DNA of 37,728 bases from Bacteroidaceae bacterium. Its GTDB lineage: Bacteria; Bacteroidota; Bacteroidia; Bacteroidales; Bacteroidaceae. The position numbers and the translations under genes were made by a program. Under the pieces are notes generated by a model, which searched no databases, was not told the origin of the DNA, and saw nothing but the letters and a program-made list of their open reading frames with translations. The first letter of the stretch is position 1, and every line of letters begins with the position of its first letter. Shown here in pieces: positions 300 to 20,400 of the stretch. The DNA is taken from the NCBI GenBank assembly GCA_017429945.1, contig JAFRNY010000076.1, positions 1-37,728 on the forward strand, given 5' to 3'.

Positions 300-332
300 A
301 GCACTTGCGAGGAATTCGCAGGTGCTTTTTTT
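300..332 (+). terminator. Rho-independent terminator after the tRNA fragment
   Basis: A 10-bp stem (AGCACTTGCG with CGCAGGTGCT, one G-T wobble) with a 7-base loop is followed by seven Ts. It lies 11 bases after the tRNA end, where a native tRNA terminator belongs. The tRNA 3' half and its terminator therefore seem to have stayed together, and sequence to the right may be the original flank. Confidence 0.8.
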
Positions 333-395: not shown

Positions 396-1076
396 TCAAG
401 CAGGTTTCTCTCCATAAGCTGCGGGAGAGTCTTCGGCGGCCATGAGGGGGTCTTCCGCGGGGAGGTCATAGGGCGTGATGCTGCGGTCTTGCAGGTCATC
501 GCCTTGCGCTTGCGTGGAGAGATTGAGCAAGAAAATCTTGTTGAGGGTGTAGGCGAGGGAGTCCAGTGTCGCCGCGCGCAGCTTCGGCCTCAGCTCGCAT
601 TCCCAGATGGTGATGCAGTGCCAGCCCATCGCTGCCAGCTGTCGCTGCACCCTCGCGTCGCGCTCCCGGTTCCGCAGGATCTTTGTCACCCAGAACTCCC
701 GGTTCGTCTTGGGGATTTTGCAGCACTCGGAGCTCTCAATCGCAAACGGCAAATCGTCTAATTGTAAATCCTTAAATTGTAAATTGATATTGTGTCCGTG
801 CCAGAAGCAGCCGTTGACGAAGATGCAGGTGCGGTACTTCCGCATCACTATGTCGGGCTTTCCCGGCAGGCGCGGGTGGTTGAGCCGATAGCGGTAGCCA
901 TTGGCCCACAGCCACCGTCGCACGATTATCTCGGGTTTGGTGTCCTTAGCGTGTATGGCCGCCATGTTGGCCGACCGCCGCGCCCTCTCTTGCTCGTCAG
1001 TGCTGATGCGCGCCTCGTCGGGCCCCGGCTCGTCCGTTGCCTTTTCATGGCGCTGCTGTGGGGTTTGTCTATCCAT
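396..1076 (-). CDS. vsr: Very short patch repair endonuclease Vsr, with an internal insertion
   Basis: Vsr nicks 5' of the T in T:G mismatches, normally those left by deamination of 5-methylcytosine at Dcm sites. The 226-residue protein has the family core: SANMAAIHAKDTKPE (35-49), PGKPDIV with Asp75, the GCFWHGH segment (89-95), PKTNREFW (122-129) and WEC with Cys160. From memory of E. coli Vsr, zinc is held by Cys66, His71, Cys73 and Cys117. The equivalents here would be Cys90 (or a neighbour), His95, Cys118/119 and Cys160. About 20 extra residues (97-117) sit between the His and the second Cys. They are encoded by AT-rich DNA resembling the intergenic repeats nearby, so activity is uncertain. 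A 40-residue acidic tail follows the core. No dcm methylase is visible. The gene overlaps the NUDIX gene by 8 bases and ends the operon. Confidence 0.88.
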   Translation of the reverse strand: MDRQTPQQRHEKATDEPGPDEARISTDEQERARRSANMAAIHAKDTKPEIIVRRWLWANGYRYRLNHPRLPGKPDIVMRKYRTCIFVNGCFWHGHNINLQFKDLQLDDLPFAIESSECCKIPKTNREFWVTKILRNRERDARVQRQLAAMGWHCITIWECELRPKLRAATLDSLAYTLNKIFLLNLSTQAQGDDLQDRSITPYDLPAEDPLMAAEDSPAAYGEKPA

Positions 1077-1467
1077 GATCCGAAAGTTTCTTCAGCTTGC
1101 TCACCAAGTCGCGGTCGGCAGGCAGCCAGCCTACGCTCTCGAGCTCATCTGCTCGGAGCCATCGTGCGGCCTCGTGCTCTTTCAAGAGCAGATGCCCGCT
1201 CTCCACGTGGCAGAGGTAGCAGTGCATGGTTAAGTGGAAGGCTGGATAATCCCATTCTACGGTCTGCACGAGTCGCTCCACCGCGACGCGCGTGTCCAGC
1301 TCCTCCCATATCTCACGCTTCAAGGCCTCCTCGGGCGTCTCGCCCTCCTCCATCTTCCCGCCGGGAAATTCCCACCAGTCCTTCCACTCGCCATATCCCC
1401 GCTGCGTGGCGAAGATGCGCCCTTCGGAATCGCGGATGATTGCCGCTACCACTTCTATTTGTTTCAT
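1069..1467 (-). CDS. NUDIX (deoxy)nucleoside triphosphate pyrophosphohydrolase, MutT-like
   Basis: A 132-residue protein, the normal length for MutT-type enzymes that hydrolyse oxidised or non-canonical (d)NTPs to monophosphates. The NUDIX box (GX5EX7REUXEEXGU) is clear at residues 37-58, starting GGKMEEGE and ending REIWEELDT. The catalytic glutamates are around 52, 55 and 56. The start KQIEVVAAII and the WWEFPGGK segment are typical of the 8-oxo-dGTP diphosphatase branch. It lies 3 bases after the PLD/helicase gene and overlaps vsr by 8 bases, so it is co-transcribed with both. The exact substrate cannot be read from sequence. The local DNA is clearly GC-rich, unlike the helicase genes upstream, so this end of the operon may have a different origin. 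Confidence 0.9.
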   Translation of the reverse strand: MKQIEVVAAIIRDSEGRIFATQRGYGEWKDWWEFPGGKMEEGETPEEALKREIWEELDTRVAVERLVQTVEWDYPAFHLTMHCYLCHVESGHLLLKEHEAARWLRADELESVGWLPADRDLVSKLKKLSDHG

Positions 1468-1470
1468 ATC

Positions 1471-4400
1471 TTATGCAATTTCTTTTATTCTTGCGAAATG
1501 CATCACACTTCCAGGAATAGGTTCTACCATATTCCAGCGGATCTGCATCTGCATTCGCGTACCTAAATTCTTATACTCCCACGAGTTCATAGTGACGCGA
1601 CCTAAATAGACATAACCAAAGGTGCGCGACTTATCCTCCACAAAGTTTTTCTGTTCGCGGACAAACAGCAACATCGTCTGTGTCTGATTGATGTATGCCT
1701 GTCCTTCCTTGGATTCTGGCCTCACGCGGTTTTGAGTGTCCCATTGGAATAGATAAGGCGAAAGGGCCTTGTCATCATAGTCTGTGGTAGAGCCTTCTTC
1801 ACGATTCTTGATGATGTCCACGAACATCGCCTCCACACGCAGGTCTTTGTTTCGTTCTACGCCCTCGCGTGCCGATGATTTGCGGGCTAGAGTCGACGTT
1901 CCTATGGCCACCTGTATCTGCGCCTTTGTATAAACGCCATGCAGCTTCAACGGAAAGTCTGGCAACAGAGAGTTGTCAGCCTTCTCATAGGCCTTGTTTT
2001 CATATAGCAGTAAAGGTAGCGCCTCCTTTAGTTCCTCACACAGGATGGTATCTTTTGACAATTCATCAACCATTTGCTGAAGGTTATCAAACCGGCCGGC
2101 ATTCTCAAACATATCATAGTAGAACATCAACAATCGTTTTTGGTCAATGGCACCCATTTCGCTCACCTTAACCTTAAAATACTGGTCTGCCAACTTTTCA
2201 ATAAAGCTCAAATACGAATACGAATCAGTAGCTAGCCATTTGCGAAACACGGCACGCCTCAATTCATCGTTGTATGCAGATTGCTTTTGCCTCAGTCCTG
2301 CCTCAAAGAGTAACTGATTCCACGTCTTAACTCTATATAGCTTATCCAGGGGCAATTGGTATATCCTGACGAAATTTGCAAGGGTTAGTGGTGCGGAGTG
2401 ATGTCTCTCGAAATTCTGCACTAATGCTATCACCTTACGAGCTGTGAAGCGCTGAATAGCACCTCTTATGTTGCTCATGATATATTCTTTCGCTTTTGGC
2501 TCCAGAATAATCCGGCACCCTAATGGCAAATGAGGGCAGTCGCGTTCCATTTCTTCAACCACACTCATTGAGGTCCGGCCCAACATCACCCGCATACGGT
2601 CGGTATAGTTAAACTCGGCTCGACTATTGCCTACAAAATCAAGGATGTCCACATGCGTTTTACCATCAGCCTTACGTAAGCCACGGCCAAACTGTTGGAT
2701 AAACACGGTAAGGCTCTCTGTTGGGCGAAGGAAGAGTATTGTGTCCACTTCTGGAATGTCAACACCCTCATTGAACATATCCACAACAAACAGGTAATTG
2801 ATATCCTTTCGCTTCAGCCGATTGTACAACACTGTTCGCATCTGCGCATTCTCACTAGTGAGCACATCTGCCTTCAGCCCACAAAGCGTGAATTTTGAAG
2901 TCATGTACTTGGCATGTTGCTGATCCACACAGAAACATAAGGCCCGAACATCACGAATATTGGTTATGTATTTCTGTAGCGATTGAAAAATGACGGCTGT
3001 ACGTGCATCGTTATAGCTATAGATACGCGAAAGTTCCGATGCCACATAATGGCCTTTATCCCAGGTCACTTCGGAATAATCCACTGAGTCGGTAATACCG
3101 TAATAGTAGAACGGAGCCAGTAATCCCTTGTTCAAAGCATCGTCCAGGCGAATCTCAGCTGAGATGACTCCATCAAAGTCTTGGGTAATATCCTCGCCAT
3201 CCATGCGCTCTGGAGTGGCCGTAAGTCCTAACAGCACCTTCGGAGTAAAATAATTGAGAATCTTACGATAAGAAGATGCTGCTACGTGGTGGACTTCGTC
3301 GACTACGATATAGTCGTAATAGTCAGCAGGCAGTCGTAAAGTATCCAAACGATTGTTGAGTGTATCTTTCGAAGCAAACACATATTCATAGCTTGCAGGC
3401 TCTTCTCCGGCATACCATTTCTCACCAAAGTTATAATCGGAGAGCACTTGACGGAATGTGAGCAGGCTCTGACGAAGAATTTCTTCGCGGTGGGCAACAA
3501 ACAGCAGCCTGGCGCGCTCGTGTTTCTCTGCAAATGCTTTATAATCGCTTGCTGCCATGACGGTCTTGCCTGTTCCCGTTGCTGCAACGACCAAGTTGCG
3601 CCAATGTCCTCGCACTTCGCGTTCCACCTGGAGCCGCTCTAAGATTTCCTGTTGATAGTCGAAGGGACGTATCAGACCTTTGAGATTTGTAAAATCAATC
3701 TCGTTGTCAGCCGTTCCGTTAAGGGCTGCCTTAAGCCGCTCATTATCCTCACCGTCCGCAAATGTATCATAGCCTTCTGCCCACCAGGAAGCATCAAACG
3801 CCCCCAGTATGGTATTCATCATCCGTGGTTGCTCCATCTGCGTCACCTTTACATTCCATTCTGCACCAGTATCAAGAGCTTGCTCCGAGATATTCGACGA
3901 ACCGATATATGCCGTATTGAAGCCTGTGTCGCGAAGGAAAATATATGCTTTTGCATGCAGGCGCTCGGAGTTTGTGTCGTAGGTAATCTTGATTTCAGTG
4001 TTCTTCAGAGCCGCCAACTGAGTGACCGCCTCGTAATCAGTAGCCCGCATATAAGTGGTGGTGATAACCTTCAGCATCCCTCCCCTTTGGGTAAACACCT
4101 TTAGCTGTGGTAATATGAGAGCGAGGCCCCGTTTTTTGATGAACGAAACCATCAGTCGGATTTCATCAGCAGAGACAATCTCTTTTTGTAACTCCGTGTA
4201 CAACTTCATCCCCTTGCCCGTAAACAGAGCTCCATTTACCAGCCCTTTTATTGGTCTCATTTCCTCAAGCCGCTTTGCCAAATCGGGATAATCGGACTTT
4301 GTCTTATCGATAACTGCTGTCAAGATTTTAGCTTGAGCCGATACCAAATTTCCAGAATCCAGGTGAAACTCGTCCGCCAACTTTCTGATGATCGTGTTGG

Positions 4401-4638
4401 CTAAGTCCAAACCCTTCTTTACCGAAATGTCCGTCGTCCCATCTTCTTTTTCATCTTCTGCATCTACCACATCAGAAAGCACCTGCTCAAAGATGCTCGT
4501 TAAATACATAGAAAGTAGTTTAGAAACCTCATCCTTTTTGATAAGCCGCTCTCCAACATAGAAACGGTTTTTGTCAATCGAAGAAATTTTCTCATCGAAC
4601 AACTGATTGATTATCTGTTCGTATATTCCAAGTTTCAT
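1471..4638 (-). CDS. PLD-nuclease / SF2 DEAD-DEAH helicase with DUF3427 C-terminus
   Basis: A 1055-residue protein with three parts. Residues about 130-290 form a phospholipase D-like nuclease domain with one HxK motif (His228, Lys230) and the GSSN signature at 247-249. Residues about 320-670 are an SF2 helicase: Walker A ATGTGKT (353-359), DEVH (447-450), LTATPERMDG (472-481) and QQFGRGLRKADG (648-659). The rest matches the DUF3427 region usually attached to this helicase type, including the LSPYLFQWDTQ and YKNLG segments. Such proteins are often annotated as restriction-like helicases in defence islands; the biochemical activity is not established to my knowledge. The start overlaps the recQ stop as ATGA, implying translational coupling, and the NUDIX gene follows after 3 bases. 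DNA or RNA as substrate is open. Confidence 0.9.
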   Translation of the reverse strand: MKLGIYEQIINQLFDEKISSIDKNRFYVGERLIKKDEVSKLLSMYLTSIFEQVLSDVVDAEDEKEDGTTDISVKKGLDLANTIIRKLADEFHLDSGNLVSAQAKILTAVIDKTKSDYPDLAKRLEEMRPIKGLVNGALFTGKGMKLYTELQKEIVSADEIRLMVSFIKKRGLALILPQLKVFTQRGGMLKVITTTYMRATDYEAVTQLAALKNTEIKITYDTNSERLHAKAYIFLRDTGFNTAYIGSSNISEQALDTGAEWNVKVTQMEQPRMMNTILGAFDASWWAEGYDTFADGEDNERLKAALNGTADNEIDFTNLKGLIRPFDYQQEILERLQVEREVRGHWRNLVVAATGTGKTVMAASDYKAFAEKHERARLLFVAHREEILRQSLLTFRQVLSDYNFGEKWYAGEEPASYEYVFASKDTLNNRLDTLRLPADYYDYIVVDEVHHVAASSYRKILNYFTPKVLLGLTATPERMDGEDITQDFDGVISAEIRLDDALNKGLLAPFYYYGITDSVDYSEVTWDKGHYVASELSRIYSYNDARTAVIFQSLQKYITNIRDVRALCFCVDQQHAKYMTSKFTLCGLKADVLTSENAQMRTVLYNRLKRKDINYLFVVDMFNEGVDIPEVDTILFLRPTESLTVFIQQFGRGLRKADGKTHVDILDFVGNSRAEFNYTDRMRVMLGRTSMSVVEEMERDCPHLPLGCRIILEPKAKEYIMSNIRGAIQRFTARKVIALVQNFERHHSAPLTLANFVRIYQLPLDKLYRVKTWNQLLFEAGLRQKQSAYNDELRRAVFRKWLATDSYSYLSFIEKLADQYFKVKVSEMGAIDQKRLLMFYYDMFENAGRFDNLQQMVDELSKDTILCEELKEALPLLLYENKAYEKADNSLLPDFPLKLHGVYTKAQIQVAIGTSTLARKSSAREGVERNKDLRVEAMFVDIIKNREEGSTTDYDDKALSPYLFQWDTQNRVRPESKEGQAYINQTQTMLLFVREQKNFVEDKSRTFGYVYLGRVTMNSWEYKNLGTRMQMQIRWNMVEPIPGSVMHFARIKEIA

Positions 4639-7370
4639 AGATGTATATTTTTATAAATAACCCTGACAATGTTATCTGGAGATGTGAATATGATAGAATT
4701 CATTTCTTCTCGAAGATAACCAATTAAGTGTATGTCTTCCTCCGTATCATGATATATTCGATAACCATGTTCGCTATTAGGCTTTTTAACAAGGATTTCC
4801 CCTTCGTCATATGCGAAACCATGAGCGATGTTGCCCAGTTTTATTAGTTCTTCATTCATCTCAAGAAAGTAGCCAGAAGAGGAAAGAACAACACGACAAT
4901 TACTCGAAAGGAATCGCTTGCTTGTTTTAGTATACTGTACATCATTTTCAATTTGGAATTTTTTAGATCCGTTAGCACTTCCTTTTTGATGCTGGTTTAA
5001 AGCATGCTTCTTCCGTTGCATATCAGCAAGAACCATTTTTATGTCCGAGTATGAAATATCGTCTCCACATGAGGATTTAATTTCCGAGAGCTTTTCAGAT
5101 TGAACTATGCCAATGGCTTCTACGACTATCATATATTTCTCCTGAGATATAAAATCAGAAGCTTTCAAATGACCGTTCCTTATAAGTTCGGCTATGTGGT
5201 CGTATATCGTTGATTCTGTCAGCTTTCGTTTAGCTGCTATTTGTGAAGGCTTTAGTCCAATTTTGATATAGTCGAGCGTCTTTTTTATCGTGTCCGCTAT
5301 CACTGATTTTTCAAGTTCCATTTTTTTGATACGGGAAGCAATGCCCCCTACATTACGCTCCAAGAGTTTTGCGATTTCTCCAGTACTTAGGCCTTGGTAA
5401 TAAAGAGATCTTAACATGTTATCTTCCACTTCGTTCCAACGAACATACGCATTGGCATGAAGTTGCTTTTGCTGTTCCATGTGTGAGAGCGTCTTGGTTG
5501 TTAGCGTTCTTTCAACACTTATTATGGGAACAGGTATATCTTCTTTGTGTGGAGCATATTCTTTTATGACCTCGATGAAATCTGCACCAAAACTGTCGCG
5601 CTTGTGTTCTCCAACGCCAAAGGTATTGCCGAAGGCAGCAAGAGTAGTTGGGCGTTCGATAGCCAAATGATGTAAAGACCGATCAGACAGAACTATGTAT
5701 GCAGGCCACTGATGCTCGTTCGCAATTCGTTTCCTAACTTCTTTTAGTTTATTGAATAGCTCCATGTTTTCGTTCTCGTCAGCATTTTCGAAAGTCTTCA
5801 GACTCTCTTCTTGCAGTCTCCTCCTACGAGCCTTTACGCTAAAGTCCTCACGACTGATGACAGCTAATTGAACGCTTCGTTTACCATATAGCACTTCTTT
5901 TCCCAGCTCTGAAACATGTATATGCCTGTCTTCATTGTATGCAATTTCGATAAACCCCATCTGCAGCATTTGTAACAGATAGTCGTGCCCGTCACGATGG
6001 GTAATCTCGCGACCCGCGGCGAAAGTCTTCAACTGATTATATTGATGCGAGGCCACATCGGGCGACATGTAACCTCGTAGAATATCTATGGTTGTCGTGA
6101 ATCCAACATTCTCTCCTGTCCGCATGATGGCCGATAATGCCTTCTGCACGATGGTTGTGCCATCGAACGTCTGAGGCGGCGTATGACACACATCGCAATT
6201 GCCACAGCCCATGTCGCTCGTCTCGCCGAAATAATTTAGCAGGATACGACGCCGACAAACCTGTGCTTCAGCATACTCCTGCATCCGTTGCAGTTTCTCA
6301 AGGTTAATCTCCTGCTGACCACTCTCATCGGCAAACTTCCGCAAGGTGATGATGTCGCCCAGATTATAGTAAAGTACGGTCTCACAAGGCAGCCCGTCTC
6401 GTCCACCACGTCCAATTTCCTGATAGAAACTCTCGATGCTCTTTGGCAGATTGTAATGCGCCACAAACCGCACATTACTCTTGTCGATGCCCATACCAAA
6501 CGCGATAGTAGCACAAATAACTTGAATCTTATCGGCCACGAAATCGTCCTGCACACGATCACGCTCAGAATTGGGAAGTCCTGCATGATAGACACCCGCC
6601 GATATACCTTCCTTCTTCAACTTCTCTGCAAGCTCTTCTGTTGTTTTTCGTGCAAGACAATAGATAATGCCGCTCTCATTAGGATGCCTTCGGATAAGGT
6701 CGACAATGGAACGCAATTTCTCACGAGCCGAATACCCACGTTTCACATCAAGGCTAAGGTTAGGACGGTCAAACGATCCAATGAATGTTTGAGCATCTTC
6801 TATATTGAGTTGCTTCAGGATGTCTTGTTTCGTTATCTTGTCGGCAGTTGCCGTGAGGGCCATGATTGGGATATTGGGGAATATACGCCTTAAATCTCCC
6901 AACTGGGTGTATTCTGGCCTGAAATCGTGTCCCCAGCTGGAAATGCAATGAGCTTCATCAATCGCAAACAACGATACTTTGGTCTGCATGAACAATTGCA
7001 TCATGCCGCTAAAAAGCCGTTCAGGAGAAATATAAAGTAACTTAACCTGTCCTTGCAGACAACGATTGATAATGTTGCGGTTCAGGTTCTCGTCGTTACT
7101 GCTATTAAGTGCCTCAGCAGGAATCCCATTTGCCTTCAATGCACCTACTTGGTCTTTCATCAAAGAGATAAGGGGGGAGATGATAACCGCCATACCTTCC
7201 ATCACTAAAGCGGAAATCTGGAAACAAAGAGATTTTCCGCCTCCTGTCGGCATAAGCACCAGTGAATCACCGCCCGTAATGGTGTGCTGGATAATTTCCT
7301 CCTGCATAGGGCGGAAAGTATCGTAACCGAAATATGACTTTAGCGTTTTGTATATTATCTCTCTATTCAT
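4635..7370 (-). CDS. recQ: RecQ-family ATP-dependent DNA helicase with long C-terminal tail
   Basis: RecQ unwinds DNA 3' to 5'. I chose the ATG at 7370 (MNREIIYKTL), which gives 911 residues and begins 8 bases after the upstream stop. A longer frame to 7448 would overlap the upstream gene. Visible motifs are FRPMQ (19-23), Walker A PTGGGKS (41-47), DEAH (138-141), SSWGHDFR (144-151) and QEIGRGGRDG (317-326). A RecQ zinc site uses Cys372, Cys389, Cys392 and Cys395. RQC and HRDC-like regions follow, the latter around WPAYIVLSDRSLHHLA. Typical RecQ proteins are 600-730 residues; the extra 200 or so hold two helix-turn-helix-like segments (STGEIAKLLERN, KPSQIAAKRKLTESTIYDHI) and an unrecognised tail. 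It may be an accessory paralogue rather than the housekeeping RecQ. Confidence 0.93.
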   Translation of the reverse strand: MNREIIYKTLKSYFGYDTFRPMQEEIIQHTITGGDSLVLMPTGGGKSLCFQISALVMEGMAVIISPLISLMKDQVGALKANGIPAEALNSSNDENLNRNIINRCLQGQVKLLYISPERLFSGMMQLFMQTKVSLFAIDEAHCISSWGHDFRPEYTQLGDLRRIFPNIPIMALTATADKITKQDILKQLNIEDAQTFIGSFDRPNLSLDVKRGYSAREKLRSIVDLIRRHPNESGIIYCLARKTTEELAEKLKKEGISAGVYHAGLPNSERDRVQDDFVADKIQVICATIAFGMGIDKSNVRFVAHYNLPKSIESFYQEIGRGGRDGLPCETVLYYNLGDIITLRKFADESGQQEINLEKLQRMQEYAEAQVCRRRILLNYFGETSDMGCGNCDVCHTPPQTFDGTTIVQKALSAIMRTGENVGFTTTIDILRGYMSPDVASHQYNQLKTFAAGREITHRDGHDYLLQMLQMGFIEIAYNEDRHIHVSELGKEVLYGKRSVQLAVISREDFSVKARRRRLQEESLKTFENADENENMELFNKLKEVRKRIANEHQWPAYIVLSDRSLHHLAIERPTTLAAFGNTFGVGEHKRDSFGADFIEVIKEYAPHKEDIPVPIISVERTLTTKTLSHMEQQKQLHANAYVRWNEVEDNMLRSLYYQGLSTGEIAKLLERNVGGIASRIKKMELEKSVIADTIKKTLDYIKIGLKPSQIAAKRKLTESTIYDHIAELIRNGHLKASDFISQEKYMIVVEAIGIVQSEKLSEIKSSCGDDISYSDIKMVLADMQRKKHALNQHQKGSANGSKKFQIENDVQYTKTSKRFLSSNCRVVLSSSGYFLEMNEELIKLGNIAHGFAYDEGEILVKKPNSEHGYRIYHDTEEDIHLIGYLREEMNSIIFTSPDNIVRVIYKNIHL

Positions 7371-7378
7371 GTAAATAT

Positions 7379-10300
7379 CTAGTTCTTTGTTAAAATCACA
7401 TTTGCTAAGCAAACAGCATATTCCATTTGAGAGTTCATCGGTTTCCACGCTAAGGTAAAGCTAACCCTCGCTTCCGTAACTTCATAGCTTTTGTCTGTCC
7501 ACACCTTCAGTTTTTCCTTACCCGCTGCTGACAAGGCTGCGATATTAAAACCCTGTTCATTGAGCAAATAACCGTTTTGATAACGAAGGCTGTCACCGCT
7601 ACGGAGTTGAAGCACAATCTCCTTGCGACCTTTAAAGAAATCGAGAATGACATCATGCATGTTCAATGCTATCGAGATGGCGGCATACTCGGCAGGCGGA
7701 TTGGTAATGAGGAAGAGATTTTGCTTGGCACGCGTGAGCCCTACGTAATAGGCTCGCATATCACTGACATCCCGGCTATCGGGCACAGGTGACAGTAGAT
7801 AGACAGTGTCAAACTCTCTGCCCTTTGCCTTGTGGATGGTACTTACAAACACCGACCGATCATCAGCAGTTATGAAGTCCTCTATATTCGACTCAAAGAT
7901 GTATTCTCTCAAGTCGCTGTGATAATAAGTGCGATGAGTCGCTTCGAAGTTGGCAAAGAAATGCTTCATAATGCTCAGGCAGGTGCTTGTGGCGTATGTC
8001 TCGAGGGTACGTCGTTTTGCCTCTTGCCATCGGTCTGCGGGAATAACGGTTCCGTCTTTACTCCCAAGTTGCTTAAGGAAGTATCTCACTTCTGCCAGAT
8101 TACCGAAACGGAAGCCGCCCATCGATTGGGCAACAGTAGCACGTAGCCCGCGACGTTCCAACTCGTAGGCTACCTGCATGGCCTCTTCGTTGGTGCGGGT
8201 CAAAACGGCCGTGCTACCTTGAGCGCTTATCTCTGAACCAAAGAGTGTCTTTAACGTGATTACCCTGCCTTCCGTGCCAGCGGCAGATAGGATAGCCGTA
8301 TGCTTCATACGACCGGGAATGCGTTGTACAAAACGATTGGCACAGTTCACGATGGTACGAGCCGAACGATAGTTGTCGGTCATCTCGTATAGTTTGGCTC
8401 CCTCCTCGCTGACGAGAGACTGCATATAGCGTGAGTCTGAGCCACGGAAAGCATAGATATTCTGGTCGTCATCACCCACAGCGATGACGCGCATCTCCTC
8501 GTTCTGCCGAATCAATGCCCGAACCAGTCGGTAGTCGTCGGCGCCCATGTCCTGTGCCTCGTCGATTACCAGTACGCTCTTGGCTATCTTCGACGGTTCC
8601 ACCTCACCGTGCTCTATCATCCCAGCTGCACGACTCACCACGTCTTTTGCCTCATCCAAGCTGCCCTGCTTGCCAATGAGGTCAAAACTGTAGGAATGGA
8701 AAGTCTTGATGTCCACATAATGCGCAGCATTGCCCACCAAGTCGATGAGTCGCTTTTTAAATTCCGTAGCCGCAGCCCTTGAGAAGGTGAGCATTAATAG
8801 TTGTTCGTGCTTTACATCTTCCAAAAGCAACAGAGAGGCTAACTTGTGTACTAGCACACGCGTCTTTCCGCTGCCTGGTCCTGCCGCTACCACGATATAT
8901 TTCGACTGCTTGTCATTGATGATTTCAAGCTGACGGTGGGAGAGCTCCCCAAAGAGTTGATTGTATTTAGCTGGTGTGATGTTCTGGTCTATCTGCACCC
9001 GTCGCTCCTCTTTGAAGTAATGTTGGATGAACTTGCGAAAGTCCATAGTGAAGTAGTCGTTGACAAATCGCAGTGCAGCATTGTAATCGCTCACCATCAG
9101 ATTGGCGTATTCGCCCACGATATGAATCTGACGGATGCGTTGTTTGTAGAACTCATCCAACAGACGGTATTGTTCCTTGCCATAGCGCGTGCGTCTGTCG
9201 GCCAAACGACCTATCAGCATGGTGTTATAGATGACGATAAAGCCACCTTCAATCTTCATGAGCTCCGTCTTCGTCAGATAAAGCAAGGCCTCTTCGATGT
9301 CGGCAATCGTTGGTTTCTCTAGCCCGTTATGATCAATAAATGTTGACTGCATACTGGCTACATACTGCTGAAGCAGTTCCACCTCCGAGAAGTTGACGAG
9401 TGTCATCTCTTTGCTGCTATCTCGTAGGGCGCTCAGTGTCTCTACTATATATCGGCAGATATTTGTGCGTCTTTCAGAGCGGGCATTTGTTACATCAGCA
9501 GAGGATTGCAGCCGGACACTCACACTGCCTGTAGAGCTGTGCTCCTGTTTGTGGATATAGCCTTTCAGTGACAGGAAATGGAGCAACATCCGCAAGCGCT
9601 TCACGCTCGAATAGGTCAGGCCTGCCTTCTGTGCCTCTTCATTCAATTCCTTATAACTGATTCTATGCGCCTCTCCACCGATTCGCTGCAAGAGGTATTG
9701 CTCCAGCTTCAGTATTAAATCAAGATTACGCAAAGAGGTACTTTTGCTGACCCATGCCTGCATATCACGGCTGTCGGCCAGCAGCCCCTCCTGCCGCATC
9801 AGGTTGATATTCCTTATGACGGTCGCCTTGCTCATGCCCAGGATATCAGTCAGATAGTCCACACGGCTTTCTGCTTCTGCCCCACGACCTTCTGCTGTTG
9901 CCCGCGCGCTGATGAGCGACTTAATGATGCGAGCAGCCTCTTCACGCGACTGTTCGTCAAAGAGTGGCGAGACGGTCAGTTTCCGTCGAGCCTCCCCCAT
10001 AGTCTTCACCGCTATGCCTGTGGCAAAAACGTGCGGTGAGTTGCTGCCTCGGCGAATGAAGCCTGCATCCTCCAAAGCGGCAATGGCAGCTTTCACGCGG
10101 GTTTCTATATCGTCAATGTCATCACCCCATCCAGCTTGTCGGGCAATGTCTAACGGTGAACAGCTCACCTTGTCGCGCTTTGATGTCAGATCTTTGATGG
10201 ATTTCCATACTTGCTGAATCTCGCTGATGCTGAGCTTGGTCTGGTTGAGCAGGATAAAGTGCTTGTCAAGGTCGTTGTCGGCATAGAGCACAAAACATTC

Positions 10301-12076
10301 TGCCTGCATCTGAGGGTCGCGGCCGGCACGCCCTGCCTCCTGGACATAGTTCTCCAGCGAGTCGCTGATGTTATAGTGAACCACCAGTCCTACGTCTTTC
10401 TTGTCAACGCCCATTCCGAATGCCGAGGTAGCCACGATGACCTCAGCCTCACCGCTCATAAAAGCATTTTGATTCTTGACCTTCTCGGCAGCTTCCATCT
10501 TGCCGTTGAAGGGTAACGCTCGTATACCGTCACTGACTAAGTGGTCAGCCAGTTGGCGGGTGCGTTTGGTTCGTGATACGTAGACAATTGTCGGACAGTT
10601 GTGGCCGAGTATCAGCGACCGTAGCAGATTGTATTTCTCGTCGGCGGTATCGGCATGGAGCACCGAATAGCGTAGGTTCTTTCGCTCAGCATTTGCTGCG
10701 AAGACTTTCAGCTCCAGGCCTAACTTCATCCTAAAATAATCGCAAATGTCGCTGATCACTTTCTGCTTGGCGGTTGCCGTAAAGCATGAAACGGCAATGG
10801 GCTTCTGCAGTTGTTTCTTATCCTGCAATTGCCGTATGAAATCACCTATGTATAGGTAATCCACTCGGAAATCGTGGCCCCAAGCAGAGAAACAGTGTGC
10901 CTCGTCAATCACGAAGCGGACAACATCTCTGCCTAACAGCAAACGCTCAATGGTTTTCGAACGTAGCATTTCAGGGGCGATATACAATAGATTCGCTGTT
11001 CCGTCAGCCACCTGCCCGATGGCAGTGGCTCGCTCTATGGGGTCGAGCAGCCCGTTGATGGTCACAGCTTCGCTAATGCCACGGGCAGCGAGATTGTCCA
11101 CCTGGTCTTTCATCAGCGACTGCAGAGGCGAAATAACCACTGTCAACCCGTGAGTGTTTCGCCCTGCCATCAATGCCGGCAATTGGAAGGTCAATGATTT
11201 GCCGCCACCAGTAGGGAATATCGTCAGCAGCGATTCGCCACGAATGGCAGACTCCACGGCTTGTTGCTGCATTGGAACGCCATCAAATGTACGGAACTCC
11301 TCATAACCAAAAAACTCCTTCAGCCCAGAATGGGCATCCAATCGCTGATGGCAGTATTCACAATCGCCACATGAAGTGTTGCAAAGCAGATTCATCACGT
11401 TGACCACCTGTGGATAGTTGCGTATAACCCACGCTGGAGTGATAGAAAAGACATCGTCGGCACCAATCACAGCCAGGCAATAAGCCAGTTCTATGGGGTA
11501 TTGTTTGACAAGCATGTCAAAGTCTGCATGACTGCATACCTTTCCTTCAAATTCCTTTGGTATAAGTTTTATCCAGTCCGGTCGCGTATTCAATATCCTA
11601 CCAAGAAATGATTGCTGTATAGCGGAAACGTATTGTATGAATTTGAAGAACCCTCTAAACTCCGTCGAACCATGCAGTAGCTGGTAGTAAATTTCCTTTC
11701 TGGTGGGAGTCAACTCGTTCCAAGCCGCAATCTCATCGCTCAGCAGGTCGCGAGCTTTCATTGAGTCGTTCACAGGATTGTTCAGTTCGTCCACCTGCAG
11801 TTTGTCGTCCTTTACAAGATGATGATACGGTCGCTTGGGAAATAGCAGAGGCGATAGAAACAAAGTGTCAACAATCGTGGGATTCCCCCGTAGTGCTGTA
11901 TATTTTAAATCATGACGAATAATATTGTGCCCACATACGGTGTCGCATCCCGATACAAAGGCATGGAAGTCGGCCTTAGAGTGGGTGTGCATAACTGCGC
12001 CGTCCTCCCTTACCGCTCCGTAATCTGCCACTCTGTTCGTCTGCGGACTAACCTCTGTATCAATGAATACTATCAT
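7379..12076 (-). CDS. DnaQ-like exonuclease / RecQ helicase / UvrD-type helicase triple fusion
   Basis: A 1565-residue fusion. Residues 1-120 are a DEDD exonuclease: FIDTE (Asp6, Glu8), GHNIIRHD (His50, Asp56) and NPVNDS (Asp104). A four-cysteine cluster at 232-242 (CNTSCGDCEYC) follows. Residues 255-600 are a RecQ core: PTGGGKS (288-294), DEAH (391-394), FSAWGHDFR (396-404) and QEAGRAGRD (579-587). Residues about 640-870 look like winged-helix segments. Residues 1040-1460 are an SF1A UvrD/Rep helicase: AGPGSGKT (1065-1072), IDEAQD (1171-1176), GDDDQNIYAFRG (1201-1212) and YVGLTRAKQNLF (1444-1455). All catalytic motifs look intact. It is the first gene after the strong promoter at 12290-12320, followed by recQ 8 bases later. 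The function of the whole is not known to me; processing of foreign or damaged DNA ends is an inference. Confidence 0.9.
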   Translation of the reverse strand: MIVFIDTEVSPQTNRVADYGAVREDGAVMHTHSKADFHAFVSGCDTVCGHNIIRHDLKYTALRGNPTIVDTLFLSPLLFPKRPYHHLVKDDKLQVDELNNPVNDSMKARDLLSDEIAAWNELTPTRKEIYYQLLHGSTEFRGFFKFIQYVSAIQQSFLGRILNTRPDWIKLIPKEFEGKVCSHADFDMLVKQYPIELAYCLAVIGADDVFSITPAWVIRNYPQVVNVMNLLCNTSCGDCEYCHQRLDAHSGLKEFFGYEEFRTFDGVPMQQQAVESAIRGESLLTIFPTGGGKSLTFQLPALMAGRNTHGLTVVISPLQSLMKDQVDNLAARGISEAVTINGLLDPIERATAIGQVADGTANLLYIAPEMLRSKTIERLLLGRDVVRFVIDEAHCFSAWGHDFRVDYLYIGDFIRQLQDKKQLQKPIAVSCFTATAKQKVISDICDYFRMKLGLELKVFAANAERKNLRYSVLHADTADEKYNLLRSLILGHNCPTIVYVSRTKRTRQLADHLVSDGIRALPFNGKMEAAEKVKNQNAFMSGEAEVIVATSAFGMGVDKKDVGLVVHYNISDSLENYVQEAGRAGRDPQMQAECFVLYADNDLDKHFILLNQTKLSISEIQQVWKSIKDLTSKRDKVSCSPLDIARQAGWGDDIDDIETRVKAAIAALEDAGFIRRGSNSPHVFATGIAVKTMGEARRKLTVSPLFDEQSREEAARIIKSLISARATAEGRGAEAESRVDYLTDILGMSKATVIRNINLMRQEGLLADSRDMQAWVSKSTSLRNLDLILKLEQYLLQRIGGEAHRISYKELNEEAQKAGLTYSSVKRLRMLLHFLSLKGYIHKQEHSSTGSVSVRLQSSADVTNARSERRTNICRYIVETLSALRDSSKEMTLVNFSEVELLQQYVASMQSTFIDHNGLEKPTIADIEEALLYLTKTELMKIEGGFIVIYNTMLIGRLADRRTRYGKEQYRLLDEFYKQRIRQIHIVGEYANLMVSDYNAALRFVNDYFTMDFRKFIQHYFKEERRVQIDQNITPAKYNQLFGELSHRQLEIINDKQSKYIVVAAGPGSGKTRVLVHKLASLLLLEDVKHEQLLMLTFSRAAATEFKKRLIDLVGNAAHYVDIKTFHSYSFDLIGKQGSLDEAKDVVSRAAGMIEHGEVEPSKIAKSVLVIDEAQDMGADDYRLVRALIRQNEEMRVIAVGDDDQNIYAFRGSDSRYMQSLVSEEGAKLYEMTDNYRSARTIVNCANRFVQRIPGRMKHTAILSAAGTEGRVITLKTLFGSEISAQGSTAVLTRTNEEAMQVAYELERRGLRATVAQSMGGFRFGNLAEVRYFLKQLGSKDGTVIPADRWQEAKRRTLETYATSTCLSIMKHFFANFEATHRTYYHSDLREYIFESNIEDFITADDRSVFVSTIHKAKGREFDTVYLLSPVPDSRDVSDMRAYYVGLTRAKQNLFLITNPPAEYAAISIALNMHDVILDFFKGRKEIVLQLRSGDSLRYQNGYLLNEQGFNIAALSAAGKEKLKVWTDKSYEVTEARVSFTLAWKPMNSQMEYAVCLANVILTKN

Positions 12077-12116
12077 ACTCCCATTTTTGCCTAATATTAT
12101 TGTCTTTTGAAAAACA

Positions 12117-12239
12117 TCAGATAGTTGAAACCTTTTTGTACAGCACCATAGATGACCAGACTACACAAGGTTTCAGTCTTATCCAAATAAAATAGAACCA
12201 AGGATCGGGCTCGCCATTGTAGTTAGTGAGCGTGGACAT
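12117..12239 (-). CDS. Possible 40-codon leader peptide in the operon 5' leader
   Basis: An ATG at 12239 opens a 40-codon frame starting MSTLTNYNGE and ending KKVSTI, with a TGA at 12117-12119. It lies inside the roughly 200-base leader between the predicted transcription start (near 12283) and the fusion gene start at 12076. I recognise no homologue. It is rich in Trp, Tyr and Phe. It could be a regulatory leader peptide, a tiny protein, or chance. Confidence 0.25.
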   Translation of the reverse strand: MSTLTNYNGEPDPWFYFIWIRLKPCVVWSSMVLYKKVSTI

Positions 12240-12289
12240 CCGACGCACTGTCCGGGCGATACTCGATATTTCATTTAGTTATTTGGCCA

Positions 12290-12320
12290 CAAAGATAATG
12301 ATTAAGTTGTAAGTAATCAA
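12290..12320 (-). promoter_or_regulatory. Bacteroidetes-type promoter of the helicase operon
   Basis: Read on the minus strand, TTG (12318-12320) is followed after exactly 20 bases by TATCTTTG (12290-12297). This matches the Bacteroidetes -33/-7 pattern TTG-N19-21-TAnnTTTG. Transcription would start near 12283, leaving a leader of about 207 bases before the first large gene. That is long enough to hold a regulatory element. Confidence 0.7.
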
Positions 12321-12560
12321 AAAAATCAGGGAAAAACGATGTTGAGGTTTATTTCTGAAATTGCGGCAGGCGGTGAAAGGGACGGTTTAGGATTTACAGC
12401 TAACCACGTATCCGTTTTCACGAGCTATGCATTCCAATGTAGACTATGACGCTTCGCCATTACATCTATTCCAACGCCGCCACTGGATTTTGTGCCAACT
12501 ATATCTATATTATGGCGATACTTCTGGAATGATGTAGATGTTGTTTTGAAAAAAAGTTTA

Positions 12561-13008: not shown

Positions 13009-13215
13009 CTATTGGATATCACGTTGTAACACCCAAATGAATTCTATTACGCATGTACATAAACCACCTGCACTTACAATGAGCTGAAAGATTACTCTCC
13101 CTATATTATCTGATGGTTGATGTACTTTTTCGTTTTGGATGTCTGTCGTCGATATTATCGATGACCTTATATCATCTACAAGGTTATATAATCCTTGATA
13201 TACCCCGCCAAACAA
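13009..13215 (-). CDS. Doubtful small membrane protein or gene remnant
   Basis: A 68-codon frame with a possible TTG start; the frame stays open a few codons further upstream to a stop. The protein has a mixed N-terminal half (QGLYNLVDDIRSS) and a hydrophobic stretch near the C-terminus (VIFQLIVSAGGLCTCVIEFI) that could span a membrane. No family is recognised and there is no clear promoter or ribosome site. It may be a decayed end of a larger gene in the intergenic region. Confidence 0.22.
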   Translation of the reverse strand: MFGGVYQGLYNLVDDIRSSIISTTDIQNEKVHQPSDNIGRVIFQLIVSAGGLCTCVIEFIWVLQRDIQ

Positions 13216-13379
13216 GATGATTAGCCTTTCACGTTGTAATCAATTTTGAAAATCCAGCTTTACCCCCCTACTTAAAATACAAATCTGCATATACACGAGG
13301 AGATTGAATAACTAGGTGCTTATGTTTTGCAAATGCTGCGTCAACCTCTGCAGGTGGGGTGTCCAGGATGATTGAAGAA

Positions 13380-17410: not shown

Positions 17411-20400
17411 TTATTTTACGAGCACTTTGCGGTTGCCTACTACGTAGACTTGCCCGCGGCGCGTGGCGTTGGTGCGGCGGCCGTCGATGGTGTAGCGGTC
17501 GGCGGCTGAGGTGGCGGCGGGCACGGCGGCGATGCCTACGGGCACTGTCTTGGTGACGCGCAGGATGCCTTTGGCGATGTCGGTGGCGTCCCAGTAGAGC
17601 CCTTGCGCTGCGTCGACGATGTAGGATTCTTCATCGAGGACGGGCGTTCCGGAGACTGACGTGACGTCGGCCCAGAGGCGCACCTCGTCGCCTTCCTTGA
17701 TGTTCTCGACGAAGGTGGACGAGTAGTGAAGCTTGACGGTGGCATTGATTGTGAGCTTGCCGATATTCTGGAGGCTTGTGCCGCCGGTGGCCGTCTCTGT
17801 GGCGGCTCGGTTGATGCCGACTTCGAGGATGGAGTTCTTGGCCATGGTGACGTTCTTGCCTCCGAAGTCGATGAGGCCTACGGTGGCTGTGGCGCTTGTG
17901 CCTACGGCGAGTGTGCCGCCGGCGTTGATGGTGACGGTGCTGTTAACGAGAGGCACTGCGGCGGTCGTGACGCCCGAGAGCTTGGCTCCGTTGGCCACGG
18001 TGAGGGCGCCCGTTCCGAGCTGTCCGCCGCTCTTGACGCAGAGCTCGCCGGCGTTGACTTTCGTGGTGCCTGTGTGGTCGTTCTTACCTCCGAGCGTGAC
18101 CTTGCCCTCCCCTACTTTCACGAGGCTTGAGTTGGCTGTGACGATTCCGCTCCACGTCCAGTTGCCGTCGTAGCCGATCTGCCAGGTGTTGGCGCCGGTC
18201 TTGCCGTCGTTGGCGAATGAGGCATAGCCTCCGAGCTTACCTTTGTCGCCTGTGACTCTGCCTATGGCGAAGGTCTTGCCGGTGTTCTGCACGGTGAGCC
18301 CGTCGGCGATGTTGAGCGTGGCCTTTGGCATACCGTTGGTGGTGTTGAGCGTCCATCGTGCTCCGCTGTCGTCGGTGCGGCCAGTGGCCTTGATGGTTCC
18401 CTCGAACTGGCGGAAGTCGAGCCCGAGCTGTGTGCGCGTGGCAAACCATGAGCTGCCTTTCTCTTCCTCGCAATAGATGGTGAGTGTGCCTTCGCCGGTG
18501 ACTTTGTTGGAATAGGATGCGCGGTTGGCGGTGTTCCAGAAGCCTGTCTTGCCCTTGGCCACGTGGAGAGTGAAGCTGCTGCCGGTGTTCTCGGTGTAGG
18601 TTCCGCCCTCGAACTCCACGGTGTTGGCCACCTTGTTGGCATTATAACACTGCACTGTTCCGGCCTGGAGGACGAGGCGCTGGAGTGTGCTAGCGGTGTT
18701 CATCTTCATCCATCCGTTGCCTTTCTTTGTGAGGAGGGTTCCAGTCATGGGTTTGTTGACGATGAAGTCGGCCGAGTTGTTGATCACGCCGCCTTCGTCG
18801 GTGAGCATCTGCATGGGCGAGCCCTGCGTCACGGCCGCTGTGGAGCGGAGCTCGGCGCCGTTCTCGATGATGAACTTTGTGGCCACGGTGGTGACGCCTC
18901 CGAGGTTGCCTACGGCTTGGTTCTCGTTGGAGAGCGACTTCACCGAGAGCACGCCGCCGCTGATGCGTGTGCCTCCGGTGTAGGTGTTGTCGTTGCCTAT
19001 GGTGAGCATGCCCGTTCCGCGCTTCTCGAGTGCTGATGTGCCCACGATGGCTCCTGTGCCGCCGAAGGTGTAGTTCTTCGAGGCGTCCACGATGACGGTC
19101 TTGGCCTCGACGTCGCCCTTGAGGCTCACGGAGAACTTGGTGGCGTCGTCGGTGAAGCGCACGACGTCGCCCGTGATGAAGCTCTCGTGGGAAGCGGGGT
19201 CGTTGGCGAGGGCGAAGTTCTCGTCGCCGCCGAACTGCCAGGTGGTGCTCTCGGCGCCCGTCCATACGATGTCGCCGGCCTGGCGCACGGTGCTGACTTT
19301 GAGGTAGATCTTATCGCCCTGCTGCTCGAGCTCGGCCTTGATGCTGGTGCCGAGGCCTTCGATGATGACGTCGTCGAGCTTGCCGCCCTTGACTTCCTCG
19401 AGGCCTTCGAAGAGGAGGTAGCTGCCGGCGGCGAGGTCGGTGCCTGCGGTGTGTGGCACGAGCTCGATGACGGGAGCGAGGTATTTGGGCCCGTAGGTGA
19501 GCCAGCTGCCTGTGAGCTTGGTCTCGATATTGAGCACGCGGGCTTTGATGACATCGGAGGCTGCGCCGTCGCTATAGACGTCCATCTGCAGGCGCGAGCC
19601 GAAGCCGAGGAGGAGCGAGTCGGTGGTGAGTGAGCCCTTGGCGTCGGCGCCGCCGGGGCGGAGCACTGAGGCGTAGTCCATCTTTATGCGACGGAACTGT
19701 CCGCCGTTGGAGTTGAGCTCCGCGAAGCGGTTGAGCCATAGGCTGCTGCTGAGCAGTTTGCCGTCGAAGTTGAGCGTGCCGGCCCAGACGTCGGTGTTGC
19801 CGGTGTTGGTGAAGTCGGCTGCGGGCAGGGTGAGGATTCCGTCGCCCTGCTTGACGATGCGCGTCGTGCCGGAGAAGGCTCCTGAGGCTACGGTGCAGAC
19901 ATAGACTTCGGTGTTGACCTTTGCCGTGCCGTTGAGTATCGAGCTATTGGTGCCCTGCACCCATGTGGGAACGTAGAATGTGGCCACTGCGGGCTCTGCG
20001 CCTGCGGCGATGGTGACCGACGTGTTGGCCGTCTCGCCAAGGAGCACGTGCTGTCCGTTGTTGGCGGCGGTGATAGTGGCTCCGTCGGCGAGGAGCGTGC
20101 GTCCGGTGGTGGTGAGCGGCGGCGGGGCTATGGTTATGCCCTCGAGCTGTCCGAGGAAGTAGCTCTTGTGGGGCGGCTGGTTGTAGCCCACACACTGCCA
20201 CACCATGGCGTTGCGGTACTGATGGTCGTGCCAGAGGGTGTAGATGCGGAATGTTGTGGGAATGGCCGTGGTGTAGATTCGTATGGCTGCGCTGTTGTTG
20301 GCACGCACGACGATTTCCTCGCGCCAGTCGCCGAAGATGTCGGCCAGTGCGCAGGGGTTGTTCTTCGAGTCGTTGTTCATCTGGCAGCCGCTGGAGGTGA

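Follow-up and report, generated by a model that had tools for sequence, protein, structure and literature searches.

The window analysed here is an entire contig of 37,728 bases (JAFRNY010000076.1) from the draft assembly of a Bacteroidaceae bacterium (GCA_017429945.1; 92 contigs totalling 2.96 Mb, with a completeness of 82%). It contains an operon of five minus-strand open reading frames (ORFs) that encode, promoter-proximal first, an exonuclease-RecQ-UvrD fusion protein, a RecQ helicase, a PLD-helicase-DUF3427 protein (P0003), a NUDIX hydrolase (P0002) and a Vsr-family endonuclease. We take this operon to be a type IV restriction core with accessory modules. P0003 is, by sequence, a SauUSI-like type IV restriction enzyme, and genes of the P0002 family are recurrent neighbors of genes for such enzymes; that the core is a defence module directed at 5-methylcytosine (m5C) and 5-hydroxymethylcytosine (hm5C), with the NUDIX hydrolase serving self-protection, is a proposition that we consider evenly balanced. 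The SauUSI-NUDIX pairing suggests a way in which a cell with both genes could spare its own DNA. The two genes of the proposed core are as follows.

1471..4638, minus strand: PLD-helicase-DUF3427 protein (P0003), 1055 amino acids (aa), with the Pfam domains PLDc_2, ResIII, Helicase_C and DUF3427
1069..1467, minus strand: NUDIX hydrolase (P0002), 132 aa, matching Pfam NUDIX and the PADLOC model PDC-S07 (E 1.6e-48)

A search with P0003 identifies the PADLOC type IV model mREase_IV with an E-value of 1.5e-199 and, over the PLD nuclease and the ATPase, SauUSI (PDB 7clg) with an E-value of 8.5e-78. When a profile of the last 366 residues of P0003 and 34 homologues is compared with the PDB, SauUSI alone is found at E up to 1 (E 2.7e-8), and the match spans residues 597-920 of SauUSI, i.e., the coupler and the target domain. 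The target domain of SauUSI has the SRA fold, with a modelled pocket lined by Tyr831, Phe841, Ile842 and Trp868 and with Asp858 positioned to bond the flipped cytosine (PMC7913695; here and below, what is said of papers cited by PMC number refers to the available part of their text). In an alignment of 59 rows (one row masked, one contig included twice), Phe841, Asp858 and Trp868 of SauUSI align with F939, D956 and W966 of P0003, which are kept in 51, 56 and 58 rows, respectively; the counterpart of Tyr831 could not be assigned from this alignment. The residues H228 and K230 of the PLD motif are kept in all 59 rows, and in P0003 a leucine replaces the glutamate of the HxK(x)4E motif. SauUSI cuts DNA with m5C or hm5C and does not cut m4C DNA (PMC3874153). 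Given the similarity to SauUSI, the conserved pocket and this cleavage specificity, P0003 is predicted to target 5-modified cytosine in DNA. Among named organisms, Bacteroidales have the proteins closest to P0003, and a search of viral contigs with P0003, the RecQ extension and Vsr detected no relatives.

The closest solved relative of P0002 is 3GWY from Bacteroides fragilis (Q5LBB1; E 2.2e-29, 44% identity over the whole length). The reported kcat/Km values of 3GWY are 6.7e6 for 5-Me-CTP, 4.8e6 for 5-Me-dCTP, 4.4e6 for 5-MeOH-dCTP (taken here to be 5-hydroxymethyl-dCTP) and 8.5e4 for 5-OH-dCTP, and the enzyme is far less active on canonical nucleoside triphosphates (PMC5158307). The DNA targets of SauUSI and the 5-methyl- and 5-hydroxymethyl-dCTP substrates of 3GWY thus contain the same two bases, in DNA in one case and as triphosphates in the other. 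By analogy with 3GWY, P0002 is predicted to be a 5-methyl-/5-hydroxymethyl-dCTP pyrophosphohydrolase. The base-binding residue of MutT is Asn119; in all 29 partner NUDIX proteins, P0002 included, the corresponding position is occupied by Asp, and among the five PDB relatives compared the one with Asn is named 8-oxoguanine-triphosphatase. The genome G865 encodes a protein 98% identical to 3GWY that fits PDC-S07, and its gene adjoins a pair of McrB-like (MrcB_N, AAA_5) and McrC-like (DUF2357, PDDEXK_7) genes.

Analysis of genomic contexts covered 75 loci with a SauUSI-like gene, the window included, of which 56 extend at least 900 bases upstream and at least 500 bases downstream of it (55 distinct loci, L082 and L115 being identical in sequence); broken copies of the gene (e.g., L112, L117 and L122) were counted as found and were not mended. 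NUDIX genes were called by phmmer, and distant ones may be missed because the query is the window protein P0002. A NUDIX gene lies within 300 bp of the SauUSI-like gene in 22 of the 56 loci, upstream in 14 and downstream in 8, and in all 22 the two genes are on the same strand; after clustering at 80% identity, 11 of the 31 clusters show the adjacency, and the gaps or overlaps are mostly below 70 bases, with a 4-base overlap in several cases. The pair is also present on plasmids of Lactiplantibacillus plantarum and Latilactobacillus curvatus, and thus in Firmicutes and in at least two phyla. Plasmid carriers of the SauUSI-like gene without a NUDIX neighbor include Pseudoalteromonas, Peptoclostridium, Paracoccus and Neotabrizicola, and no NUDIX neighbor was seen in the SauUSI-like loci of Fusobacterium and Spiroplasma. 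By contrast, 37 loci that were retrieved by way of the fusion gene show no NUDIX gene within 1.5 kb, although absences in the shorter of these loci are weak evidence, given flanks of 0 to 16 kb. These 37 loci comprise 30 regions from 29 of the 31 non-window genomes with the fusion (G048 and G067 were left out, and G357 gave two regions), 6 of 23 plasmid records and one viral contig; L101, which was found through its SauUSI-like gene, is counted apart. This distribution (same strand, either side, short distances, at least two phyla, and the contrast with the fusion) argues against an alternative that we consider unlikely, namely that the operon merely brings together ordinary defence-island neighbors, i.e., a type IV enzyme, two helicases, a MutT-like 8-oxo-dGTPase and an orphan Vsr, without a joint function.

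The association was also examined in 99 genomes of the genus of L120 (Bacteroides timonensis), a sample centered on a genome known to carry both genes. The restriction gene is present in 8 of these genomes, the NUDIX gene in 11 and both in 4, and the two genes are adjacent in all 4 (hypergeometric p 0.0048). In Streptococcus suis, the pair of PDC-S07 and RM type IV is the only consistently co-localised one of 24 (23 of 23 cases; PMC12813430). This co-localisation is the only link between NUDIX and type IV enzymes that was found in the literature, and the available part of that paper offers no explanation for it; the available part of a Streptococcus thermophilus study names PDC-S07 in a table only (PMC11514479).

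Several other genes were observed around the SauUSI-like and NUDIX genes. In L132, from a Lactiplantibacillus plasmid, the genes for NUDIX, the SauUSI-like protein, a MazG-like protein and a GIY-YIG/SLFN-g3 helicase stand in a row, and in L198 and L199 (G811 and G813) a NUDIX gene of the P0002 family lies directly behind an SLFN-g3 (DUF2075-type) helicase gene. A four-gene cassette adjoins the SauUSI-like gene on the upstream side in two of the loci L105, L109 and L125 and on the downstream side in the third; its large protein in L105 is a DUF3584 protein, which we take to be similar to JetC of Wadjet. In L104, L105, L113, L114 and L120, the same convergent gene is located some kilobases downstream of the SauUSI-like gene. 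Judged by eye from the start of its sequence in L175, this gene looks like dnaK, and its presence in five loci is suggestive of a shared insertion spot.

The last gene of the operon encodes the following protein.

396..1076, minus strand: Vsr-family T:G mismatch endonuclease, 226 aa, matching Pfam Vsr and TIGR00632

The window Vsr scores 131.1 bits against TIGR00632 (cut-off 97.85) and contains, near the N-terminus, a 25-residue in-frame insertion that is not present in the three Vsr relatives found near NUDIX genes. Altogether, Vsr is located near a NUDIX gene in four places, namely the window, G784 (the genome of L101), G797 and G813; within the genus sample, 7 NUDIX genes do not adjoin a SauUSI-like gene, and 2 of these have Vsr nearby. 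The G797 operon (L197 = G797:C31:33000-49000, 7612-11992) encodes, in this order, a MutH-like nuclease, a C5-methyltransferase, Vsr and NUDIX, and no SauUSI-like gene was detected in G797 at E up to 1e-60. In G813, the order is SLFN-g3 helicase, NUDIX, DUF1016 protein, small ORF and Vsr, with Vsr 1.7 kb from NUDIX.

Type IV enzymes come without a protective methyltransferase and depend on a host that is free of the modified base. A search for C5-methyltransferases (PF00145), positive in 10 of 14 control genomes, detected none in the host assembly; at 82% completeness, one may have been missed. More generally, PF00145 is less frequent in genomes with a SauUSI-like gene (carriers; 12 of 40) than in non-carriers (26 of 40; Fisher p 0.0033, with kinship ignored); in the part composed of Bacteroidales and the genus of L120, the counts are 3 of 12 carriers versus 19 of 25 non-carriers (p 0.0049, again with kinship ignored); another 21 of the 40 carriers, 7 of them with PF00145, are in groups without matched non-carriers. 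The carriers were 28 of the 40 non-window positives of the phylum set, 5 of the 12 order positives and 7 of the 8 genus positives, whereas hand-picked genomes from among those with no match served as non-carriers, chosen by no written rule and at a time when their methyltransferase content was not yet known.

Under the self-protection hypothesis, which we favor, P0003 would bind modified cytosine in incoming DNA through its SRA-type domain, translocate and shred the DNA, as has been shown for SauUSI. P0002 would destroy modified dCTP, derived from the cut foreign DNA or from the phage, before the host polymerase can insert it; modified bases in the chromosome would become targets of the restriction enzyme, and P0002 would keep them out, so that only foreign DNA is cut. 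Vsr, judging from its family, would repair T:G mismatches that result from deamination of m5C, and RecQ and the fusion, as separable helicase modules under the same promoter, may degrade or process broken ends. What the analysis itself establishes is the identity of the parts by sequence, their linkage and the recurrence of that linkage. We infer from the two characterized relatives that SauUSI cleavage and 3GWY kinetics hold for P0003 and P0002, respectively, and that their joint purpose is self-protection.

The same match between the substrates of SauUSI and 3GWY (PMC3874153, PMC5158307) would also fit an offensive role of the NUDIX hydrolase, whereby it destroys hydroxymethyl-dCTP that the phage makes for its own genome; modified phages would then be attacked at two levels, their DNA (by the restriction enzyme) and its precursor (by NUDIX). 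The defence-island setting, with the DUF3584 cassette beside the SauUSI-like gene in three loci, is compatible with such an arm. However, depletion of modified dCTP would also deprive the restriction enzyme of the mark on which it depends, and in G797 the NUDIX gene follows a C5-methyltransferase-Vsr cassette in a genome without a SauUSI-like gene detected at E up to 1e-60. We regard an offensive role as quite unlikely.

Self-protection by the NUDIX hydrolase can be extended, tentatively and with less confidence than is attached to the module itself, to a nucleotide-pool tier of modification-dependent restriction. Here, a linked NUDIX hydrolase would remove 5-methyl- and 5-hydroxymethyl-dCTP, the free counterparts of the base that the enzyme detects in DNA, and thereby separate self from non-self without a methyltransferase, and the same NUDIX family would serve m5C-making systems with Vsr. 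If such a tier exists, it would explain PDC-S07 and its tie to type IV restriction, self/non-self discrimination in modification-dependent restriction would have an enzyme behind it, and PDC-S07, a PADLOC defence candidate listed without a function, would gain a testable job.

A number of observations weigh against self-protection, and some of them favor ordinary neighbors instead. No adjacent NUDIX gene is found in 34 of the 56 SauUSI-like loci, so that the pair is common but not obligatory; together with the genus sample, where 4 of the 8 genomes with the restriction gene lack a close NUDIX altogether, this indicates that NUDIX is not strictly needed. The genus association weakens to p = 0.022 without the center genome, itself known beforehand to have both genes, and three of the four co-carriers represent one lineage (94-100% identical). 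P0002 barely passes the MutT 8-oxo-dGTPase model TIGR00586 (100.2 bits against a cut-off of 97.9), as expected of an ordinary MutT-like neighbor, and falls below the cut-off of the NudG-like model PRK10546 (75.8 against 156 bits), for which reason it is not filed as NudG. Of the 5 PDB relatives compared, 4 likewise have Asp at the position of the MutT Asn, and the McrBC-like neighbor of the 3GWY gene is missing in G798, a close relative of G865. Among the 22 loci with the SauUSI-NUDIX pair, phmmer identifies Vsr beside the pair in the window only, and the fusion and RecQ, too, are rarely found beside the restriction gene elsewhere, as would be the case for ordinary neighbors. Finally, the C5-methyltransferase deficit is uncorrected for phylogeny and comes from hand-picked genomes, one class-level part shows no deficit (2 of 7 carriers versus 7 of 15 non-carriers, p 0.65), and G785 and G841 have matches for the restriction gene, NUDIX and a C5-methyltransferase together.

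The first two genes of the operon encode helicases.

7379..12076, minus strand: exonuclease-RecQ-UvrD fusion, 1565 aa, both helicases identified by Pfam and NCBIfam; putative DEDD exonuclease at ~1-240, RecQ-type helicase at ~245-640, UvrD-type helicase at ~1045-1460
4635..7370, minus strand: RecQ helicase, coordinates from the ATG (possible GTG start at 7448), with RQC, HRDC, HTH_40 and a C-terminal extension

The sequence-only reading of this DNA had described the first protein as an exonuclease-RecQ-UvrD fusion. The two helicases are borne out by Pfam (DEAD/Helicase_C and UvrD domains), and the exonuclease, the one uncertain part, is proposed from a DEDD-type motif, with D6, E8, N51, D56 and D104 unchanged in each of the 33 sequences compared; DEDDh exonucleases have a histidine where this pattern has the asparagine. 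The N-terminus of the window protein matches no Pfam family, DNA_pol_B_exo1 is detected in 2 of 25 homologues (best E 0.022), and a PDB search yields nine weak matches (E 0.057 to 0.75), with no exonuclease among them. The N-terminal part is a putative DEDD exonuclease. RecQ scores 687 bits against TIGR01389 (cut-off 640.2), and, with an E-value limit of 1e-30, its C-terminal part (298 aa) is matched in none of the other genomes among the 393 from the order that were searched.

The fusion gene is present in 32 of these 393 genomes, that of the window included, and more distant fusion genes are found on plasmids of Alphaproteobacteria, Gammaproteobacteria, Campylobacterota and Cyanobacteria. 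Of the other gene families around it, none is seen in more than 3 of the 39 loci compared, the window included, and the fusion normally stands without the partners that it has in the window operon. In L048 and L063, from two genomes of one genus, a RecQ gene precedes the fusion at a distance of 4 and 7 bases. A contig of 105 kb from IMG/VR that is classed as viral (L094) carries a fusion gene 82% identical to that of the window, and its flank is partly common to Bacteroides and Phocaeicola plasmids that carry the fusion. In L101 (81-84% DNA identity to the window), the fusion directly adjoins the restriction gene, with no RecQ between them and with a NUDIX remnant behind (13160-13300), cut off ~40 codons after the start; this genome keeps two other NUDIX copies, one of which adjoins Vsr. 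Because the fusion and the restriction gene are directly adjacent in L101, the order fusion-restriction-NUDIX may be the older one, with RecQ inserted later, or the reverse. In L108, a RecQ gene whose product is 70% identical to that of the window over the helicase part follows the restriction gene and NUDIX.

These contexts bear on the proposal, made in the sequence-only reading, that the five proteins form a single machine which jointly recognises and degrades or repairs abnormal DNA. The tightly packed, partly overlapping genes behind one promoter would suit such a machine, as would L101, where the fusion again stands beside the restriction gene with NUDIX sequence behind it. However, neither the DUF3427 gene nor Vsr is adjacent to the fusion in any of the 37 loci found through the latter, and RecQ is adjacent in 2; the lack of any recurrent family beside the fusion, the RecQ extension without a match in the other genomes and the absence of RecQ from the L101 arrangement point in the same direction. 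The co-occurrence of fusion, DUF3427 gene and NUDIX in other genomes had been proposed as a check, and the result is mostly negative: among 37 loci (12 + 25) searched for the fusion by way of the DUF3427 gene, the two genes are side by side in one, L101. A single machine is accordingly regarded as highly improbable. A conserved five-gene system was likewise rejected after inspection of 38 fusion loci and 75 SauUSI-like loci, the full set being found in the window only. From the earlier theme of abnormal or modified DNA, the type IV enzyme, the NUDIX relative active on 5-modified dCTP and Vsr are retained and the joint machine is not; the suggestion that the system is undescribed did not hold either, given that the DUF3427 protein is SauUSI-like (PMC3874153, PMC7913695) and the NUDIX protein matches PDC-S07 (PMC12813430).

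The layout of the operon agrees with its first description: the ORF coordinates confirm the five genes and their spacing, with intergenic distances of 8, -4, 3 and -8 bases along the operon, and a pattern scan confirms the promoter. The operon is bounded by two further features.

12290..12321, minus strand: promoter TTTG-N20-TATCTTTG, Bacteroidetes-type, ~210 bases before the fusion gene, from the pattern scan
300..326, plus strand: terminator-like hairpin of 12 pairs past the 3' end of the operon, adjoining a tRNA-Met remnant

The promoter pattern, which we assume to represent the Bacteroidetes-type consensus, has 3 matches in the 37.7 kb window, that of the operon among them; a generic sigma-70 scan of the window gives 20 sites versus 19.8 expected, i.e., no excess. 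The hairpin at 300..326 comes from a scan whose total is no higher than in shuffled sequences. The 3' half of a tRNA-Met is located at 247-288 on the plus strand, with 2 mismatches to the intact tRNA-Met on contig C66, and the latter, as judged by eye, is also trailed by a similar hairpin sequence. The tRNA-Met remnant with the hairpin at the edge of the operon looks like the attachment-site scar of an integrated element. To the right of the operon, the window contains ordinary genes, including those for gyrB, a 1535-aa rhamnogalacturonan lyase and D-Ala-D-Ala ligase, and a tRNA-Glu. In its second half, the rhamnogalacturonan lyase (17411-22018, minus strand) contains PATR repeats (passenger-associated transport repeats), a combination that was not expected.

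Among known systems, the two helicase genes resemble those of RecQ, DpdF and GajB type, and the helicase cores of both RecQ and the fusion match these models. Membership in Dpd was rejected, with RecQ at 208.7 and the fusion at 203.9 bits against the DpdF equivalog cut-off of 550, so that only the helicase core is shared, and membership of the fusion in Gabija appears unlikely on the same ground; no GajA is found among the five operon genes by Pfam and PADLOC, and a Pfam search of 15 window ORFs shows no partner gene of either system. Within the literature titles and abstract openings that were covered, no RecQ-UvrD-exonuclease defence protein was found. The window Vsr passes the Vsr model, as does Vsr of the Dcm-type systems, but differs from these in that the host assembly, at 82% completeness, yielded no C5-methyltransferase. 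Similarly to P0002, the close match of 3GWY in G865 fits PDC-S07 and adjoins a type IV-like pair, although its partner is McrBC-like and divergently transcribed. The PADLOC candidate PDC-S07 of S. suis shares with P0002 the protein model and the kind of partner; the difference is that, in the available part of the text, co-localisation is reported there without a substrate or mechanism (PMC12813430). The closest parallel to P0003 is SauUSI of Staphylococcus aureus (7CLG), with which it shares a single chain that contains a PLD nuclease, an SF2 ATPase, a coupler and an SRA-type target domain; P0003 is ~100 residues longer at the N-terminus (the match begins at residue 138 of P0003 and residue 32 of SauUSI) and, unlike SauUSI, is encoded in an operon with a NUDIX hydrolase and helicases.

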